A stretch of 49,755 bases of DNA, from the NCBI RefSeq assembly GCF_027011145.1, contig NZ_JALVAO010000063.1:1-49755 (forward strand), written 5' to 3'. The position numbers and the translations under genes are program-made. This stretch comes from Thermococcus sp. (GTDB taxonomy: Archaea > Methanobacteriota_B > Thermococci > Thermococcales > Thermococcaceae). The stretch's first letter is position 1, and every line of letters starts with the position of its first letter. Below the pieces are notes generated by a model. That model worked only from the letters and a program-made list of their open reading frames with translations, did not search any database and was not told where the DNA came from. Positions 23,865 to 31,532 of the stretch are shown in pieces.

Positions 23865-24401
23865 TCACTCCTTCTTTCCAAACTTCTCCTTGTAGAGCTC
23901 TACGGCGCGGAGTATCTCCTTCTTCGCTTCCTCGGCGTTACCCCAGCCCTCGACAGTGGTAGTTTTACCCTGGAGCTCCTTGTAGCGCTGGAAGAAGTGG
24001 GCAATTTCGTCGAGAAACGCCTTTGGAACGTCGTCTATGTCCTTCCAGTCCTTGAAGTAGGGATCCTCGACCGGAACTGCCAGAACCTTCCAGTCCTTGT
24101 CGCCAGAATCTTCCATCTTCATTATCCCTATGGGCCTGGCCTCGATTATGGTGAGCGGGTAAACCGGCTCGCGCATTATGACCATTATGTCGAAGGGGTC
24201 GCCGTCGTCGTACCAAGTCTGCGGGATGATTCCGTAGTCAACTGGGTAGAAGAACGGGCTGTAAAGGACACGGTCGAGCTTAAGTAAGCCAGTCTTCTTG
24301 TCGAGCTCGTACTTGTTCCTGCTCCCCTTCGGAATCTCTATAAGAGCGTACACAACCTCAGGAACGTTTGGTCCGGGCTCAAGCTCGTGGAACGGGTTCA
24401 T
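23865..24401 (-). CDS. ppa: Inorganic pyrophosphatase, family I
   Basis: 178 residues, the standard family I length. The signature DGDPFDIMV (about 66-74) with the preceding DYGIIPQTW provides the metal-binding aspartates; upstream [10 protein letters not shown] and later DKDWKV carry the remaining active-site residues. It hydrolyses PPi in the cytosol and pulls nucleotide polymerisation forward. A TATA-like element (CTTTAAAAG) lies near 24460-24468, with an AGGTGG ribosome binding site, so it probably leads the operon that includes rpo7, spt4, dephospho-CoA kinase and two ribosomal proteins. Confidence 0.97.
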
Positions 24402-24479
24402 CTCTAACCACCTCTAACCCTTTTCTTAGAATTCCTAAGGTGGCTTTCCCCTTGGGCTTTTAAAGTTGTTGGTTCCGGG

Positions 24480-25442
24480 CTAATCCGCCCGGTACTCGTA
24501 AACGGTTTCGCCGTCTGCAATCGCGTAAACTTCAACTTCGCCGTCTCTGTAATGTATTACCGGCCTGTCGACTAGTTCAAAGACCCGTTCCAGGTCCTTT
24601 GGGGATGAGAGCTCAACGCGCCTCCCTCCGGGAAGAGTTCCATCAACCGTGTACTTTTCCAGGCCCTTAAGCACCTTGGGTTTGGTCTCTCTCCTTTCCC
24701 TCCTGGCATAGACGAACCCCGCCGGTGGAATCGCAAAGAGGAGCGCCATGGCCGGGAAAACAGTCCTGGCCGTTGAGATCTCAACGTCGGAGCCAGCTAA
24801 TGAGAGAGAGTTAGCCGTCACGCTGACGTTTCTGACGGTTTTCAGATAGCTTTTTTCGGCACCCTCGAAGTACAGCATGCCCGAGGCGTCGCGCTTCAGA
24901 CGGATTTCCTGAGTGAAGGGTTCCCTCCCGTTGGCCAGAACTTTCACAGTGACGTAGACTTCCCTCTCGGCCCTGTAGAGGCCCGTTCCCTCGCGGATTT
25001 TTCTGAGCTCCCCGTCCATCTCGGTGAAGTTCAGCTCAACGGGAACATTGAATGAATCTGCGAAGACACCCTTAGCGAGGAGCTTCGTCCCGTTGAGGAG
25101 GTAAACCCTCCGCTTTCCAGAGGTGACGTAGTAGTTAACGTGAAGCGTTACCTCGTAGCTTCCCCGCAAGCCGTTGGAGAGGAAGCGGTATTCGCCCACG
25201 ATTGAGTCTGTTATCTCGGCAGGATAATATTGGAGAGAAGTTCCGTTTCGATAAACGCTCTCGTTCGAGAAGAGCCCGTAGTTTGCGAAGTGACCCTCCT
25301 GCGTGTAGGCTGTCGAGTAAGTTGCCTCCGTTGTTGTAGGCTCCCTAGAGTAGGCAACGCCGGAATAGACGGCAAAGGTAAGGGATAGGAAAACCGAAAG
25401 GGCGAGGCCAGTAGCTATGGCCCGTTTTTTGTAAACCTTCAT
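24480..25442 (-). CDS. DUF5305-like membrane/surface protein
   Basis: 320 residues. An N-terminal anchor (about 8-30) leads to an extracellular beta-rich domain (35-225) with Asn sequons, then a second membrane helix (about 228-246, ending in ARRERR) and a C-terminal cytosolic domain with VIHYRDGEVEVYAIADG. This two-helix layout fits my recollection of DUF5305, which in archaea often sits beside type I signal peptidases and DUF1102 proteins. The ATG at 25442 follows GGAGGT at eight bases, and the ribosome binding site lies inside the upstream gene, so translation is coupled. It is the last gene of the TasA/SipW-like cassette; possibly an assembly or anchoring factor. Confidence 0.72.
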   Translation of the reverse strand: MKVYKKRAIATGLALSVFLSLTFAVYSGVAYSREPTTTEATYSTAYTQEGHFANYGLFSNESVYRNGTSLQYYPAEITDSIVGEYRFLSNGLRGSYEVTLHVNYYVTSGKRRVYLLNGTKLLAKGVFADSFNVPVELNFTEMDGELRKIREGTGLYRAEREVYVTVKVLANGREPFTQEIRLKRDASGMLYFEGAEKSYLKTVRNVSVTANSLSLAGSDVEISTARTVFPAMALLFAIPPAGFVYARRERRETKPKVLKGLEKYTVDGTLPGGRRVELSSPKDLERVFELVDRPVIHYRDGEVEVYAIADGETVYEYRAD

Positions 25443-25444
25443 AA

Positions 25445-26308
25445 TCAACGACCTCCCGTAACTGTGATTTTATTTGAAACGACGTCGGTACCGCAGAGGT
25501 GGGCCCCGCAGTTGAGGGTGTAACTCCCGGGAGAGAGGAAGACAGCTTCAAGGGGTATGTTCAGGGTAACCGTTTCTCCCCGGGCAACATGGACGCGCCA
25601 CACTATCCTCCAGCCGGAACAACCGCAGTGGCAGTGGTCCATCATCAAATCCGCCCTTCCAGAGCTTGGCCTCGGCAGACCAACGACGTAGAAGGCCCTC
25701 CAGCCGGGGTTAGGGATGGAGTCCATTATCACGAAGTCACCCTCTTCGCCGTTGTTGGTGAAGTTGAGCTGGAGCGTTATCGAGTTCCACTCACCAACGG
25801 GATAGAAGTAAACTCCCCCTACTATGGACTTAACCAGGACGTAGGGGGTTTCAACGCTCGCGTACATCGAGCAGTCCCCAATCCTAGCACTTCCGCCGTC
25901 CCACTCCGCGTAAACGGTGAGGGAAACCCCATAGGTGCCATCTGTGACGTCTTCATCGACGGAAAAGTTCCCACCGACTGCGACGGATTCACCCGGCTCA
26001 AGGGTATAGGTGGAGCTGTCAACATCGCCACTTAATCCCCGTGGAAGGGACGAGCCATCGGCCTCGACGTGAATGGTGATTGGCCTGTCCATCAGGTTCT
26101 CAACGGTTACCGCGGTGAACTCCACACCGGAACTCGCGTTAACAGGAACCGGGTCTGATAGACAGCGGTACGCGATGTAGGAATTGTCTCCCCCAACAAC
26201 CCCAAACTCAACATCCCTGCTGGAGGTGTAAGCCTGGAAGTTCCCGCTCGAACCCACAATGAAGAGCAGTCCGAGGAGGAAAGCAATAAGGGGTAAAAAC
26301 TTTCTCAT
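25445..26308 (-). CDS. Third TasA-like secreted protein, cysteine-rich
   Basis: 287 residues. A signal peptide (MRKFLPLIAFLLGLLFIVGSSG) is followed by NFQAYTSSRDVEFGVV, the same start as the two DUF1102 proteins in this cassette. A longer beta-sandwich region follows, with Cys pairs and a CHCGCSG cluster near residue 230. A second Ig-like or NEW3-type domain (about 150-285) distinguishes it from the shorter pair; it may cap or anchor the fibre. The ATG at 26308 is one base from the signal peptidase stop. Function inferred from neighbours. Confidence 0.7.
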   Translation of the reverse strand: MRKFLPLIAFLLGLLFIVGSSGNFQAYTSSRDVEFGVVGGDNSYIAYRCLSDPVPVNASSGVEFTAVTVENLMDRPITIHVEADGSSLPRGLSGDVDSSTYTLEPGESVAVGGNFSVDEDVTDGTYGVSLTVYAEWDGGSARIGDCSMYASVETPYVLVKSIVGGVYFYPVGEWNSITLQLNFTNNGEEGDFVIMDSIPNPGWRAFYVVGLPRPSSGRADLMMDHCHCGCSGWRIVWRVHVARGETVTLNIPLEAVFLSPGSYTLNCGAHLCGTDVVSNKITVTGGR

Positions 26309-26309
26309 G

Positions 26310-27368
26310 CTAACCATCTCCTAGAAGTTTGGAAAGGAAACTTCCCCTCCGTTTTCTGATTCTAAGGACGTCCCCCTCCGAAATCCCCGCAAGGCAGTAG
26401 AAGACCACGAGCAGTCCCGCGAGAAGAGTAGCGTAGGCAACGAGCGGAAGGTAGGGGCTGAGGGAGTAAAGGAAAACCACGAAGGAAGCAGGAAGAACGG
26501 CCGGATACGACCTGACCCCGAACTCCTCCCTGTAAATTCTCGTGTCCCGAGGAACGGTAACATGAACCGAGAAGGTGACACTTGAACCCCCACCTATGCG
26601 AAAGAACGTCGGCCCGGTCAGGTGTGCTCGCTCACTTTCACCGTCCACGAAGTAGTAGAAGGGGTAAAATGCGTTGTTCTCAAGGGTGAGGTTCCTATCA
26701 AAGGTCGAGCCGGGTAGATACCAGCCCTCCCTCTGGTTGCCGGCCAGGGTTGAGGAGTATGTAAGGGCTAGCGTTCCCCACGAGGCGACAGTAACAAAGA
26801 GGAAGCCCGCTATTATGAGGGCCGACGCGACGGCGTAGAGGGTCTTAACGCTCACTCGGTAGTATTTGACCCGTTTTCGTTTTTTATTCCCGCCGGAGAA
26901 GGTGAGAACGGCACCGGCGATGAGGAGAATGGCTATCGCATAGGGGTTGTCCAGCTTCAACCTTATGGAGTTAATCAGGTCTCCGCCACCTCTGAGGAGG
27001 AGTGGCTTACTGAAGAGAACGACCACCTTTCCTGCCACATCTGAATCTTTGACAGGAGGATAAAGGCCGTCCTGCTGGTCGGTGGCGACGTTGTTGTCGC
27101 CCTTGGTCAAGATGCCATTCCCCGTTATCGCGAAAATCCTGTGGACCGTCCAGCCGTCGCGCTTGTGGAAGACCACGATATCGCCGACCTCGAAGTTCCT
27201 CGCGAGCGGGTTCATCAGAAAGAGGTCGCCTCTGTTTATGGTGGGCGTCATGCTATCGGAATAGGCATAGGACAGAAACACGGGGCGGTTCAGGAAAAAG
27301 CCGGCTAACGAACCAAGGAGAAAGACAACCACGATGAAAGCAAACGTGAACTCGAGCAGTTTCTTCAT
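26310..27368 (-). CDS. ER/SipW-type signal peptidase I with extended membrane C-terminus
   Basis: 352 residues. N-terminal anchor (5-27), then the S26B active site: Ser39 (SDSMTP), His76 (TVHRIF) and Asp91 (TKGDNN). The use of His in place of the bacterial Lys makes it ER/archaeal/SipW type. After the catalytic domain come a helix (about 143-160), another (about 177-200), an extracellular beta domain and a final helix near 305-328, an extension absent from minimal signal peptidases. Placed among DUF1102 proteins, it is probably a dedicated peptidase for them, as SipW is for TasA in Bacillus. The start is an ATG with a GGTGAG site. Confidence 0.88.
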   Translation of the reverse strand: MKKLLEFTFAFIVVVFLLGSLAGFFLNRPVFLSYAYSDSMTPTINRGDLFLMNPLARNFEVGDIVVFHKRDGWTVHRIFAITGNGILTKGDNNVATDQQDGLYPPVKDSDVAGKVVVLFSKPLLLRGGGDLINSIRLKLDNPYAIAILLIAGAVLTFSGGNKKRKRVKYYRVSVKTLYAVASALIIAGFLFVTVASWGTLALTYSSTLAGNQREGWYLPGSTFDRNLTLENNAFYPFYYFVDGESERAHLTGPTFFRIGGGSSVTFSVHVTVPRDTRIYREEFGVRSYPAVLPASFVVFLYSLSPYLPLVAYATLLAGLLVVFYCLAGISEGDVLRIRKRRGSFLSKLLGDG

Positions 27369-27413
27369 AGCTACTCACCCTCAAAAGGGTTGGGGCAAGG
27401 CCCCGGAAGAAAA

Positions 27414-27959
27414 TCACGGGCCCTCGCTAGGGCAGGCTCCAGCGACGGCCTCAATGCTCATCTGGAACTGGTATCCCTGCATTGCGGAGTTGGTGTTGTC
27501 GAATACCATTCCAATCGGAACGGGGTTTCCGTGGGTTACGGTGAAGTTTATGTTGTGGGCCGATCCGGCCATAGGGCTGTCGTAGGTTCCGGCGAAGATA
27601 AGTACATCTGGGTGTGAGGTCTTTATGGTGACGCATATCGGGTAGTCCGTCCCGTTGTTCTCCCAGAGCTCGTTGCTTACCTCGAACATCTCCTCAAAGA
27701 CGTAGGTTGTGTTCGGGCTCATTCCGGCACCCCCATCGGCAGGGTGGTTTGGATTATACTGGCTGATGTCAACGTAGAGCTTTCCAGCGTCGTAGGTCAC
27801 GTAGGGCTGGAGAGCAGTTAAGTCAATAAGCTCGTTGTCGTCGGACACAACGTCGAAGCTTGCCTGCCTCTCGGCAGAGTAATACCTGAAGTTCGCCCCG
27901 GCACCAACTGCCAGGAGCATTCCAACCATCAGTAAAGCCAGTCCAAACAGTTTATTCAT
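27414..27959 (-). CDS. DUF1102 / TasA-like secreted fibre-type protein (copy 2)
   Basis: 181 residues. The signal peptide (1-22) ends AVGAGA before NFRYYSAERQASFDVVSDDN, a start shared with the neighbouring copy. The body is beta-rich with NPNHP and SPNTTYVFEEMFEVSNELWENN, the DUF1102 core. DUF1102 proteins are related to TasA/camelysin and to the archaeal bundling pilus subunit AbpA, which polymerise by donor-strand complementation using the freed N-terminus. Two Cys (VCVT-like ICVTIK and ACPSEG) may pair. It lies 14 bases after the 27974-28573 gene and is co-transcribed. Copy 1 and copy 2 are clear paralogues. Confidence 0.82.
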   Translation of the reverse strand: MNKLFGLALLMVGMLLAVGAGANFRYYSAERQASFDVVSDDNELIDLTALQPYVTYDAGKLYVDISQYNPNHPADGGAGMSPNTTYVFEEMFEVSNELWENNGTDYPICVTIKTSHPDVLIFAGTYDSPMAGSAHNINFTVTHGNPVPIGMVFDNTNSAMQGYQFQMSIEAVAGACPSEGP

Positions 27960-27973
27960 CTCTCATGCCCCCC

Positions 27974-28573
27974 TCATGACCCCTGGCCACACTTGCCGAC
28001 GAGTTCACTGGGTTCAGTGCCGAGCCTGTATGCCTGAATGTGTATCGTGCTACTTTCCGTGGTGTTGAGAGGTAAGTTCCCAACGTCGAAGTCCATACCG
28101 ACCTTAACGGCCTCCCCCGGACTAAGGAGGAAGCAGACGTCGTTCTTGGCCATGTCGCTGGCGTAAACAACTGCCCCGGTGCTGACGTCGTGGATATCGT
28201 GGTCCGCCCCATAGAACTGTATAGCGGTGTTGGCGTTGGTAATCCTCACGACTATGCTCATGTTGTCCTCCCAGAGGTCGTTGCTTACGGCGAAGACCTC
28301 ATCAAAGTTGTACTCCGAGTTCGGGCTCAGACCCTGGCCGTAGCCCGGGTAGTTCGGGTTGTTGGGACTTATATCAACGACGAGGACGCCACCGTCGTTT
28401 ATGTAGGCGTAGGGCTGAATCGGCGTCAGGTCAATAAGCTCGTTATCGTCGCTGACTATGTCCCAGTGGACACTCCTGTCAGCATTGTAGTCCCGGAAGT
28501 TGGCTCCAGAGCCAAGAACGAGACCAAAGGCCACGAGCAGGCCAAAAATTCCAAGTGCAAGGTTTTTTCTCAT
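27974..28573 (-). CDS. DUF1102 / TasA-like secreted fibre-type protein (copy 1)
   Basis: 199 residues. The signal peptide (1-23) ends in LGSGA, followed by NFRDYNADRSVHWDIVSDDN. The middle carries SPNSEYNFDEVFAVSNDLWEDN, which aligns with copy 2 almost residue by residue, while the C-terminal third differs. Likely the major or first fibre subunit, because it is the promoter-proximal structural gene. Its ribosome binding site GGAGG (28582-28586) lies inside the 3' arm of a perfect 7-bp hairpin (see the leader feature), so its translation is probably controlled. Confidence 0.83.
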   Translation of the reverse strand: MRKNLALGIFGLLVAFGLVLGSGANFRDYNADRSVHWDIVSDDNELIDLTPIQPYAYINDGGVLVVDISPNNPNYPGYGQGLSPNSEYNFDEVFAVSNDLWEDNMSIVVRITNANTAIQFYGADHDIHDVSTGAVVYASDMAKNDVCFLLSPGEAVKVGMDFDVGNLPLNTTESSTIHIQAYRLGTEPSELVGKCGQGS

Positions 28574-28716
28574 CTTTTTCGCCTCCAGATTGGAGGCACT
28601 GTGGAAACGGAAGCCAGCGGTGAACGAATTCTCACCACTGCAATGGTGAAATCAACGCAGTGCCCGGCAACCCATAGGGTTGCTCAATGATACCTTGAAC
28701 CATTGGAGTATATATG
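28574..28716 (-). promoter_or_regulatory. Promoter and structured leader with a hidden ribosome binding site
   Basis: A TATA element (CATATATAC on the minus strand, about 28708-28716) predicts a start near 28686, giving a leader of about 110 nt. It contains GCAACCC/GGGTTGC arms (28667-28673 and 28677-28683), TCACCA/TGGTGA arms (28632-28637 and 28644-28649), and a GCCTCCA/TGGAGGC hairpin (28581-28597) whose 3' arm is the ribosome binding site. GGCACTG (28595-28601) can pair with CAGTGCC (28658-28664) and shares three bases with the last hairpin, so the two are mutually exclusive in part. The TCACC/GGTGA half-sites (a further one at 28619-28623) could instead be DNA operator sites. Confidence 0.6.
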
Positions 28717-28760
28717 AAATGCCAGATTAACGGCGGGTAATGGAGGATTACCCAAAAATC

Positions 28761-29192
28761 TCAGACCCGCCTCATCATCCTCCGGTGAATCATACCCACT
28801 CCTGCGTAGACCAGCGAGGCGAAGGCTAGGTGAGGGTTCTCCAGGTAGAGGGCCGCCGCGAGAAAAATCAGGGAGAGGCCCACGTAGAAGGAGCTCCAGC
28901 TTATGTCGTTCTTCTTGACCGTCTCCATGTAAAGGGTAACGTCCTCGGGAACCTTAACCAAGGTTACAATCCCGTGCCTGAAGGTTATAACTCCCTCGCG
29001 CTCAAGTTTTGGAATGTGGGTCTGGATTAGACTCACGTAAACGCTCTTCCTGTGCTTCCTATCGGTGTTCCCCTCGCTCTCGGCTATGTACTCGACCATG
29101 TCCCTCAGCTCGGCCCTCCCCTCGGACTTCTGGAGGTACTCAATCATGAGCATCCTCCTGCTGTTTCCCAGTATGACCGAGGAGGTTCCCAT
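28761..29192 (-). CDS. Winged-helix regulator with C-terminal membrane helices (DUF7344-like)
   Basis: 143 residues: a winged helix (about 5-90, with RRMLMIEYLQKS, VYVSLIQTHIPKLEREGVI and FRHGIVTL) followed by two hydrophobic segments (about 106-137) and a basic tail MIHRRMMRR. Such membrane-tethered small regulators (DUF7344 type, from memory) accompany signal peptidase/DUF1102 loci in other archaea. The ATG at 29192 follows CGGTGAT, which overlaps the stop of the preceding gene. Probable regulator of the fibre cassette that begins 190 bases downstream. Confidence 0.72.
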   Translation of the reverse strand: MGTSSVILGNSRRMLMIEYLQKSEGRAELRDMVEYIAESEGNTDRKHRKSVYVSLIQTHIPKLEREGVITFRHGIVTLVKVPEDVTLYMETVKKNDISWSSFYVGLSLIFLAAALYLENPHLAFASLVYAGVGMIHRRMMRRV

Positions 29193-29197
29193 GGCAA

Positions 29198-29404
29198 TCA
29201 CCGTGCCAACCTGTAGTGCTTTCTGCCGTTGGTGCCTACTCTCGTCTCAACGATACCATCTTCGGCAAAGCGCCTCAAAGCCCGTTCAACTCCCTGTCTT
29301 GTGACGTCAAAACCCCGTTCCATGAGAAAGCGTGTGATGAATGCAACCGTCAGCTCTCCATCATTGAGAACGTCAACAATCTCACCCTCGAAATCGTGCC
29401 TCAT
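29198..29404 (-). CDS. Small winged-helix DNA-binding protein
   Basis: 68 residues, almost entirely one winged helix: VAFITRFLMERGFDVTRQGVERALRRF is helix-turn-helix, then a wing with IVETRVGTNGRKHYRLAR. The ATG at 29404 follows GGGAGG at eight bases and is preferred over a longer reading. It is co-translated with the membrane-tethered regulator (its stop overlaps that gene's ribosome binding site). TATA-like AT-rich DNA lies near 29461-29470. Likely a co-regulator or autoregulator of the TasA-like cassette. Confidence 0.68.
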   Translation of the reverse strand: MRHDFEGEIVDVLNDGELTVAFITRFLMERGFDVTRQGVERALRRFAEDGIVETRVGTNGRKHYRLAR

Positions 29405-29796
29405 TTTTTCAACCTCCCTGCCAGAGTAAGATCCGGCCATGGTAAAGTTAGGGGAGGAAAGTATTTAAACATGCCCAAAAAGTTCGTTGATCAAAGTTTC
29501 AACATAAATAAAGCTAAAACTGGCCGTTTTTCAAAAACGAACCCTGAACTCGGAGTTACCGCCAATGGAACCAGTGGTAGAGTGGAACAATGGATGGGGT
29601 GTGGGCATTAAAAATCCGAAAACATCACACATGAAGAGAGCAAAAAACATCAATTGATAAAACTGCTCAGAGATTTCCCCAAAAGCCAGGAATTGCTGAG
29701 TAAAAAAACAACCAATCCGGATACTCATAGGGGTATAATATGAGGTTCGAGAAACGAAGTATGGAGGGGGTTCGGGGTTCTGGAGCCCTTAAGCGA
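29405..29796. other. Gene-free region upstream of the fibre regulators
   Basis: About 390 bases without a convincing gene. It holds the regulator promoter (AT-rich near 29461-29470) on the minus strand and a TATA-like GGTATAATATG near 29731-29743 on the plus strand that points to no visible gene. A 65-residue minus-strand reading (29531-29728) has poor codon use and no ribosome binding site. The part nearest tRNA-Gln is rich in G (29761-29780) and would be its 3' trailer. Confidence 0.4.
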
Positions 29797-29872
29797 TGGT
29801 AGCCCCGCGGGGATTCGAACCCCGGTCGCGGGATCCAGAGTCCCGCATGCTTGGCCGCTACACCACGGGGCT
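29797..29872 (-). tRNA. tRNA-Gln (CTG anticodon)
   Basis: A complete cloverleaf on the minus strand: acceptor AGCCCCG/CGGGGCT, anticodon stem CGGGA/TCCCG with loop CTCTGGA (anticodon CTG), and T-arm with GGTTCGAATCC. Discriminator A; the CCA end is encoded in the DNA at 29797-29799. Its promoter TATA box TTTATAAAT lies at about 29901-29909, the expected distance upstream. Confidence 0.96.
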
Positions 29873-30287: not shown

Positions 30288-30380
30288 AACCCAGAATGAG
30301 TATCTAACGTAACTTAAAAACATTAACCCCTGCCAAAACACTTTTTAGGATAAAGAAAAAAGTATTGGTAGGTGAGACAA

Positions 30381-30746
30381 ATGGAGCCCCATGAGTTCAA
30401 GCTCACAGAGGAGGGCATTAAAGCTGTTCTTCCTCCACTTGAGGCTGAGATAATGGAACACATGTGGAAAGTGAAAGTCGCAACCGCAGGCCAAGTTTAT
30501 GAGTACATGAAACAAAAACACCCAGAAATAAGACGATCTACCATAAGTATTCTAATGAACCGCCTCTGCGAAAAAGGGCTTTTATCAAGGAGAGTTGAGA
30601 AGGGCAGAGGTGGAATGAGATATGTATACTCAATAACAACGACAAGAGAAGAGTTTGAGCAAAAAGTTGTTCAGAGTATTCTCGATGCTTTGATGACGAA
30701 CTTCAGAGAGGCAACTTATGCATATATCTCAAGGATAAAGAAGTGA
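30381..30746 (+). CDS. BlaI/MecI (CopY) family transcriptional repressor
   Basis: 121 residues: a penicillinase-repressor-type winged helix (about 18-90) with LPPLEAEIMEHMWK, ATAGQVYEYM, RRSTISILMNRLCEKGLL and a wing around RGGMRYVY, then a C-terminal dimerisation helix. In bacteria BlaI is controlled by cleavage through the membrane metalloprotease BlaR1. Here the next gene, six bases on, is an M48 membrane metalloprotease, so a proteolysis-controlled switch is possible but not shown. The ATG at 30381 is set by AGGTGAG; the GTG inside that site is rejected. Confidence 0.85.
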   Translation: MEPHEFKLTEEGIKAVLPPLEAEIMEHMWKVKVATAGQVYEYMKQKHPEIRRSTISILMNRLCEKGLLSRRVEKGRGGMRYVYSITTTREEFEQKVVQSILDALMTNFREATYAYISRIKK

Positions 30747-30752
30747 TGAATA

Positions 30753-31532
30753 ATGCTTTACCTCATCCTTATAATCGAGGTTATACTCCTCCTTGGTGCT
30801 CTCGGAGACCTCGGGATTATAACCACAATAGGAGCAATGGCATTCCTCACCGTGCTGTACATATGGGCAACAAAACACAAATTTGGAGAGAACCTCATTC
30901 CCCTAGACCGGGAAGAAATGCCCTGGCTCTACGATGGCATCGCTGAACTCGCCAGAAAGGCAAACATTCCAATGCCCCGAATTTATCTGCTCGACGACTA
31001 CATACCCAACGCATACTCCTTTGGGAATACAATAGTTTTATCTCTTGGCCTCTTCGAAGTTCTGGATGAAGAGGAGATAATAGCAGTTGCTGCGCATGAA
31101 CTTGGCCATATAAAGAACCGCGACACCAGGTGGTTTCCTTTGATAATTTACGGTAGGGCCCTGATGATGATAACAACGTTACTTCTTGTTTTGGCTGGAA
31201 ACCTGCCAGTAAAAGCCACATCTCTCATTCTTTACCTGGCGTACGAACTTGCGAGAAGTGACTTCATGAAAAAGAGGGAGTTCTTAGCAGATGAAACTGC
31301 CCTTAGACTACTGTCAGTTCCCCTAAGCCTCAAAAGGGCTCTTGAAGAGCTTAAGTACTACGAAGACCTGAGAATGAAGGTAAAGGTCAGCGCCGTTCCG
31401 AGCATTGAGCCAAATATAGAGAGGGAAAAGCGCTTTGCATTTTTCACGGAAACACATCCAAGCTACGAGGAAAGAATCATACGAATAACCTTTGAAATGA
31501 ACAACCTAATGAGAATGAAGCAGGTGCAGTAA
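30753..31532 (+). CDS. M48 family (HtpX/BlaR1-like) membrane metalloprotease
   Basis: 259 residues. Two N-terminal hydrophobic segments (1-18 and 21-38) precede the zinc site H115-E-L-G-H119 and a later acidic ligand in REFLADE (about 178). A further hydrophobic stretch lies at about 128-158. It is shorter than HtpX (about 290) and lacks a BlaR1 sensor domain. The GTGATG ribosome binding site overlaps the repressor's stop codon, so it is co-translated with the BlaI-like protein. Likely membrane protein quality control or regulated cleavage. Confidence 0.85.
   Translation: MLYLILIIEVILLLGALGDLGIITTIGAMAFLTVLYIWATKHKFGENLIPLDREEMPWLYDGIAELARKANIPMPRIYLLDDYIPNAYSFGNTIVLSLGLFEVLDEEEIIAVAAHELGHIKNRDTRWFPLIIYGRALMMITTLLLVLAGNLPVKATSLILYLAYELARSDFMKKREFLADETALRLLSVPLSLKRALEELKYYEDLRMKVKVSAVPSIEPNIEREKRFAFFTETHPSYEERIIRITFEMNNLMRMKQVQ

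Follow-up and report, generated by a model that had tools for sequence, protein, structure and literature searches.

The 49,755-nucleotide stretch of Thermococcus sp. analyzed here (contig NZ_JALVAO010000063.1, positions 1 to 49,755; hereafter the window) carries between positions 24480 and 29404 a cassette of seven genes, all on the minus strand, that strongly suggests a surface fiber. We give a probability of about 0.72 to the reading, drawn from sequences and predicted models, that this is a pilus cassette resembling that of AbpA, the bundling donor-strand pilin of Pyrobaculum calidifontis, with private processing and regulation. The cassette works like the TasA/SipW system of Bacillus, yet we do not class it as TasA, and an extracellular matrix may be one of several roles possible for a donor-strand pilus. 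Gene order, families, predicted folds, operator and leader structure were computed directly. The strongest new facts are the geometry of the operator, the leader RNA and the ectodomain of the signal peptidase; an earlier note on this DNA, made from the sequence alone, had missed all three, together with a DUF11 domain in one of the secreted proteins.

We infer the strand exchange, the roles of single parts, the binding partners and the function as follows. The two DUF1102 proteins (DUF1102a and DUF1102b) would be exported via Sec, their signal peptides ending in a special site at which a small residue and Ala or Gly precede Asn-Phe. The cassette's own endoplasmic reticulum (ER)-type signal peptidase would cut at this site, freeing an N-terminal strand that may enter the open beta-sandwich of the next subunit, and the resulting head-to-tail chain would be a thin surface pilus. 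A third secreted protein, which shares this start and carries the DUF11 domain, could be an end piece or adhesin, and a DUF5305-like protein could anchor the fiber to the membrane. The membrane regulator DUF7344 and a small winged-helix protein (wHTH) would act on a palindrome at a fixed distance from the TATA box, and a leader folded over the ribosome-binding site would add control of translation in this Thermococcus clade. We favor a fiber because of the conserved cassette, a fold match in which AbpA comes first, the disordered nine N-terminal residues of the subunit, a Phe at P2′ as in SipW-cut TasA, the homology and DUF11 domain of the third protein, the gene overlaps, a haloarchaeal locus that groups the same families, and an operator that co-occurs with the cassette.

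The coordinates (Table 1) confirm the seven genes on one strand that the earlier note had placed here, and of its two winged-helix regulators the membrane-tethered one is borne out by the hydrophobic segment of DUF7344 and by a score of 66.7 bits against a Pfam cut-off of 27.8 (PF24035); the family matches of the small one are weak. The two DUF1102 proteins are paralogous as claimed, scoring 182.2 and 172.5 bits against a cut-off of 22.2 (PF06510) and sharing 42% identity. For the proposed DUF5305 membrane protein, the E-value and two hydrophobic segments agree with the assignment, but the score of 27.4 bits lies under the cut-off of 29 (PF17231). The peptidase is of ER type, as stated (TIGR02228, archaeal signal peptidase, 59.4 bits; cut-off 51.85), and the proposed Ser39, His76 and Asp91 are conserved, but it does not qualify as a SipW orthologue (NF046067, 29 versus 190 bits). 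The genes are closely packed: DUF7344 shares 4 bases with the preceding wHTH gene, for which an upstream ATG is likewise open and which is present at the expected place in most orthologous loci; DUF1102a and DUF1102b lie 14 bases apart, and DUF1102b and the peptidase 45; and the third-protein gene overlaps that of the peptidase by 8 bases and the DUF5305-like gene by 4. Between DUF7344 and DUF1102a, a gap of 187 bases holds its own promoter.

The start of the mature proteins is distinctive. After the hydrophobic signal, the secreted proteins share the pattern small-[Ala/Gly]-[Asn/Thr/His]-Phe-x-x-[Tyr/Phe], which in the window's three members reads small-[Ala/Gly]-Asn-Phe-x-x-Tyr. The common start described earlier as Gly-Ala/Ser-Asn-Phe-x-x-Tyr needs correction, as the third protein has Ser-Ser-Gly-Asn-Phe-x-x-Tyr. 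A cut before Asn would place Phe at P2′; the available part of a report on TasA gives Phe at P2′ and cutting by SipW, and describes Escherichia coli LepB as poor with an aromatic P2′ (PMC10269814). Over 264,656 bases of the genome, 78 gene calls have a hydrophobic stretch at the N-terminus, and 3 of them show the pattern, all in the cassette; since the pattern was drawn from these same proteins, the informative count is 0 of the other 75. Phe stands at that place in 56 of 56 aligned third proteins, whereas the count of 120 of 120 for DUF1102 is circular, the rows having been chosen by the motif. The 23 rows without the motif are third DUF1102 paralogues, found ahead of the peptidase in many relatives (L013, L018, L019, L022 and others) and missing from the window's genome. 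They have an N-terminal hydrophobic stretch and no small-Ala-Asn-Phe site, and such a paralogue may stay in the membrane as the base of a fiber.

The predicted fold of the mature DUF1102a subunit best matches AbpA, by a small margin. In the model (alignment of 60; predicted local distance difference test score [pLDDT] 85.3; predicted template modeling score 0.82), residues 1-9 have a pLDDT below 50, as expected for a strand without its acceptor. Foldseek ranks AbpA (PDB 7ueg) first (E 1.0e-5, probability 1.00) and FimA-type donor-strand pilins in rows 2-8, and VIA-align 2 also finds 7ueg to be the best PDB match (Z 8.2, root-mean-square deviation 2.7, 116 aligned, 11% identity), with the Sulfolobus thread 7pnb at Z 6.0. 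TasA, camelysin and TapA are absent among the fold matches listed by the two programs, and none of the three secreted proteins matches the Pfam TasA/camelysin family at E up to 1. Of the relationship to TasA/AbpA proposed in the earlier note, the AbpA half is thus supported by the predicted fold; the link runs to AbpA, and to TasA only through AbpA.

The first 120-130 residues of the third protein align with DUF1102 (hhalign, 96-97% probability). For the second part, 11 of 22 orthologues show a DUF11-type domain (best 4.6e-9), and some orthologues reach about 450 residues with one further repeat. PDB profile searches with the third protein and with DUF5305 gave no informative match. Among NCBIfam models, those for the fimbrial proteins TafA (NF052520) and TafE (NF052522) match 16 and 8 of 60 DUF1102 sequences weakly (best 1.3e-6 and 0.0018), the scores of 24.3 against 190 bits and 17.9 against 155 bits being far below the curated cut-offs. 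TafA has no match in 61 genomes of the order, and a literature search did not find the source organism or paper of TafA/TafE.

Conservation of the cassette is extensive. DUF1102 occurs at E ≤1e-3 in 87 of 94 Thermococcaceae genomes (72 of the 74 of good quality) and in all six genera. All 35 Thermococcus loci keep two or three copies of DUF1102, the peptidase, the third protein and DUF5305 in identical order and strand, an arrangement far beyond chance; in one of these, L029, the DUF5305 gene is truncated by the contig end. The other five genera carry the cassette in 5 of 5 loci, one locus each, with the peptidase frame of L108 split in two. Among 28 loci from named records, which partly overlap in genomes with the 35 and include six from Archaeoglobi, the five core genes are complete in 23, four loci are cut short and one (L058) is without a detected third protein. 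None of the cassette genes is present at L048, a locus from a different family whose genome gave a DUF1102 match below threshold. On a plasmid of the haloarchaeon Halocatena salina, DUF5305, a 344-residue signal peptidase, DUF7344 and DUF1102 lie side by side, and DUF1102 keeps Phe after the predicted cut; since this clear haloarchaeal member of DUF5305 sits in the same kind of cassette, it supports both the DUF5305-like gene and the fiber locus. Of the four families compared, the third protein has diverged most, with a median identity to the window's protein of 31.9% (DUF5305 34.1%, peptidase 46.3%, DUF7344 63.8%), as would be expected of an exposed or terminal piece. The last 60 residues of the DUF5305-like product, its cytoplasmic tail, are highly conserved across Thermococcales and Archaeoglobi; this is odd for a mere anchor, and the tail may report the state of the fiber to the cell.

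Several observations weigh against an AbpA-like pilus. The second rank in VIA-align 2 goes to a CEP192 domain (Z 7.8), so that the margin of AbpA over unrelated beta-sandwiches is small; the Foldseek TM-score between DUF1102a and AbpA is low (0.34); and a PDB sequence search with the DUF1102 profile gave no AbpA or TasA match, 7ueg being absent at E up to 10. The link between the third protein and DUF1102 leans on the common start, since its hhalign probability drops to 18-22% without the first 40-50 residues. L058, with its undetected third protein, departs from the cassette pattern, and genomes G090 and G006, which have no palindrome, depart from that of the operator. The three secreted proteins might instead be Ig-like monomeric surface proteins or S-layer attachments (adhesins or binding proteins) that the peptidase only matures, with no fiber at all: Ig-like sandwiches are common, and MSP and PapD-type domains, at Z 6.6-7.8, come close under AbpA. 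We regard this as improbable, given that the top Foldseek matches are donor-strand pilins, that two related subunit genes with a private peptidase match the sipW-calY1-calY2 layout of Bacillus cereus, and that the mature start is strongly constrained. The case for an AbpA-like pilus rests mainly on two facts: both programs place AbpA first, and further donor-strand pilins appear among the matches.

The peptidase itself has 352 residues and four hydrophobic segments, and in 25 orthologues Ser39 is nearly invariant, His76, Asp91 and Asp97 are invariant, and the part added to the peptidase domain is conserved. In the light of work on Sec11, Asp97 may be the catalytic Asp. Modeled alone, the ectodomain (pLDDT 92.5) has seven strands, the last of 12 residues, followed by helices that form a membrane segment within the whole peptidase. 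Foldseek returned nothing under 1e-3, and many entries in its list are MSP, PapD-like or pilus-chaperone domains (Caf1M, FaeE, DraB, YadV, CupB2); in VIA-align 2, Z was at most 7.3, a range the tool calls ordinary, and no pilus chaperone stands out; and a PDB profile search gave no informative match. The ectodomain is likely an Ig-like domain of PapD/MSP type, and we hypothesize a role as chaperone. We dropped the idea that it is a DUF5305 paralogue, hhalign having found no link to DUF5305, DUF1102 or the third protein. One could imagine a peptidase and pilus chaperone in one, in which the last long beta-strand of the ectodomain would fill the groove of a DUF1102 subunit still bound to its signal peptide; after the cut, the freed N-terminal strand of the same or the next subunit would displace the ectodomain strand, coupling cutting to usher-free polymerization. 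From the models we judge this scheme a long shot, if a serious one. If it is true, coupled cleavage and polymerization would be a further assembly route for donor-strand pili, suited to one-membrane cells.

The genome holds three ER-type peptidases, the other two being open frames of 174 and 191 residues. A second short ER-type signal peptidase (L083:17446-18465; contig C15, about 50445-51464) adjoins a 128-residue secreted protein, possibly another small private-processing pair; no second private cassette was seen near it, where a single small secreted protein stands beside it.

The palindrome upstream of DUF1102a occurs in 54 of the 63 regions that reach 200 bases or more ahead of the gene (a few genomes entered twice), with 34 different spacers. 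The TATA box starts 21-22 bases past it in 47 of the 54 and 31-32 bases past it in 5, and a third half-site follows at 4-5 bases in 47 and at 14-15 in 4; the shift of about ten bases is one helical turn and so fits a protein touching one face of the DNA. The 36 loci examined (549,755 bases) contain 35 palindromes, every one of them at DUF1102a. The whole genome has two, of which only that at DUF1102a lies between genes; the second (contig C69), within a reading frame, was rejected as an operator and taken as chance. At least one palindrome is found in 86 of the 94 Thermococcaceae genomes, but a reversed control pattern also matches some genomes, so that single palindromes elsewhere mean little. 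In L041 (G029), L054 and G107, about 5 kb separates the regulator pair from DUF1102a, yet the operator is still found at DUF1102a. Away from the cassette, several Thermococcus genomes share a second palindrome that is nearly identical (GGTAACTAAA[A/G]GTTACT or its complement).

Archaeal membrane-bound transcription regulators of pilin genes are known, ArnR among them, from the available portion of one report (PMC10269533). The palindrome might nevertheless be bound by a regulator encoded elsewhere, with the linked winged-helix pair acting on other targets. It is absent upstream of the regulator genes themselves (0 of 46 regions upstream of the wHTH gene), and in the Archaeoglobi loci L062, L063 and L065, where the core genes are kept and DUF7344 is undetected, the palindrome is missing too. 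This alternative seems to us rather unlikely, as DUF7344, found in 84 of 94 Thermococcaceae genomes, is in nearly all of them a single copy beside the cassette, and the elements are lost together: G075 is without DUF1102, DUF7344 and palindrome, and G091 is without DUF1102 and palindrome and retains only a broken DUF7344. That remnant (G091:C3:48657-48856) suggests loss of the entire cassette.

Judged from the TATA box, the leader preceding DUF1102a measures about 110-150 bases in the window's clade, and its sequence suggests that it could be a switch controlling translation. Its hairpin P3 covers the Shine-Dalgarno sequence; six of its seven pairs never change across the 28 leaders, the seventh is the same in 25, and the loops vary. 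A stricter P3 pattern matches 30 of 94 genomes, once each, all Thermococcus and all just upstream of the first DUF1102 match. In helix P2, 98.4% of cells are paired and both sides have changed in three of seven pairs (18 distinct rows), compared with 21-52% pairing when the partners are slid by 1-3 columns; P2 was first seen by eye, then located by script and counted, so the choice was not blind, and in one row (L053), where the script had picked another GGC, the position was corrected manually. P2 and P3 have bases in common and therefore compete, since they cannot both form in full. RNAalifold on a MAFFT alignment of the leaders finds only the nearly invariant P3, which is in the predicted fold of 20 of the 28, and Rfam gave no match at E up to 1 in window positions 24400-29800. 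The chances seem to us evenly balanced that the leader is no switch and that its hairpin serves only to shield the transcript or to place the ribosome at the high temperature of the cell. The P3 stem is so nearly invariant that covariation cannot show it, and folding predicted for 85 °C retains the hairpin in only some sequences. A switch is favored by the covariation of P2, whose full formation excludes that of P3, and by leaders that are more stable than their shuffles (mean folding z -2.5, n = 28).

Table 1. Features of the cassette and related elements; positions are those of the window unless a genome and contig are given, and a slash within a sequence marks the predicted cut.
Feature	Position	Strand	Remarks
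Small winged-helix protein (wHTH)	29198..29404	-	68 aa, or 80 aa from ATG at 29440; weak GntR/MarR/PadR-type matches
DUF7344 winged-helix regulator	28761..29201	-	C-terminal hydrophobic (membrane) segment 100-118; PF24035, E 2.4e-18
Operator palindrome GGTAATCCTCCATTACC (RGTAAY-N5-RTTACY)	28736..28752	-	upstream of DUF1102a
Third half-site GTTAAT	28726..28731	-	between palindrome and TATA box; offset conserved
TATA box TATATA	28709..28714	-	DUF1102a promoter; spacing to palindrome conserved
Leader hairpin P1 GCAACCC-TAT-GGGTTGC	28667..28683	-	
Leader helix P2, 5′ strand GGCACTG	28658..28664	-	pairs with 28595-28601
Leader helix P2, 3′ strand CAGTGCC	28595..28601	-	bases in common with P3
Leader hairpin P3 TGCCTCC-AATCT-GGAGGCG	28580..28598	-	covers Shine-Dalgarno GGAGG just before start codon
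DUF1102a	27974..28573	-	predicted fiber subunit; SGA/NFRDY; PF06510, 7.4e-54
DUF1102b	27414..27959	-	second predicted fiber subunit; AGA/NFRYY; PF06510, 7.6e-51
ER-type signal peptidase	26310..27368	-	peptidase (~1-120), three further membrane segments, ectodomain (~197-300); SEC11A profile match 1.8e-12
Third secreted protein	25445..26317	-	DUF1102-like domain and DUF11-type domain; SSG/NFQAY; hhalign 96-97%
DUF5305-like membrane protein	24480..25448	-	ectodomain, membrane segment, conserved cytoplasmic tail; PF17231, E 2.7e-6; two hydrophobic segments; alignment of 22
Off-cassette second palindrome	G015:C1:264769, G018:C1:909509, G033:C1:394309, G035:C1:1211540, G063:C1:807791, others		

Among known systems, AbpA is alike in the predicted beta-sandwich of the mature subunit, in the putative N-terminal strand and in the presumed place on an archaeal surface, but has no detectable sequence similarity to DUF1102. 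Like TasA-SipW-TapA of Bacillus subtilis and sipW-calY1-calY2 of B. cereus, the cassette is an operon with at least two subunit genes and an ER-type peptidase of its own, and Phe stands at the predicted P2′; the accessible text of two reports describes assembly of TasA fibers by donor-strand exchange from an operon that encodes SipW (PMC9674648) and the B. cereus genes (PMC10151520). The cassette differs in a peptidase that is no SipW orthologue and carries the extra ectodomain, in its DUF5305 and DUF7344 partners, and in a subunit for which TasA is not among the fold matches listed. The Sulfolobus thread Saci_0406 (7pnb) is likewise a donor-strand sandwich of a surface fiber with a signal peptidase I site; the part of the report available to us describes donor-strand complementation and a cluster without a definite chaperone or usher, and in that part no private peptidase is described, unlike the cassette (PMC9715654). 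To TafA and TafE the likeness is the weak family match. The chaperones of chaperone-usher systems (Caf1M, FaeE, DraB, YadV, CupB2) resemble the peptidase ectodomain in their PapD/MSP-type Ig-like domain, but the ectodomain is a single membrane-tethered domain, is tied with many other Ig-like domains, and has no usher gene beside it.

Outside the cassette, a pyrophosphatase gene (23865-24401) comes after it. On the plus strand of the window (30372-31532), a penicillinase-repressor-type (BlaI-like) regulator is directly followed by an M48 membrane peptidase, which looks like a separate regulator-protease pair.

A search mostly outside subscription journals found no paper on DUF1102, DUF5305, DUF7344, PF06510 or PF17231. 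The present analysis gives a probable function to DUF1102 and to a locus of nearly every genome of the Thermococcaceae, a family that includes genetically tractable species. A single operon would bring together a private peptidase with its ectodomain, a candidate anchor, paired regulators, an operator and a leader RNA, all of them open to deletion or mutation. The finding bears on how archaea, with neither outer membrane nor usher, may assemble donor-strand pili, anchor them and regulate them.

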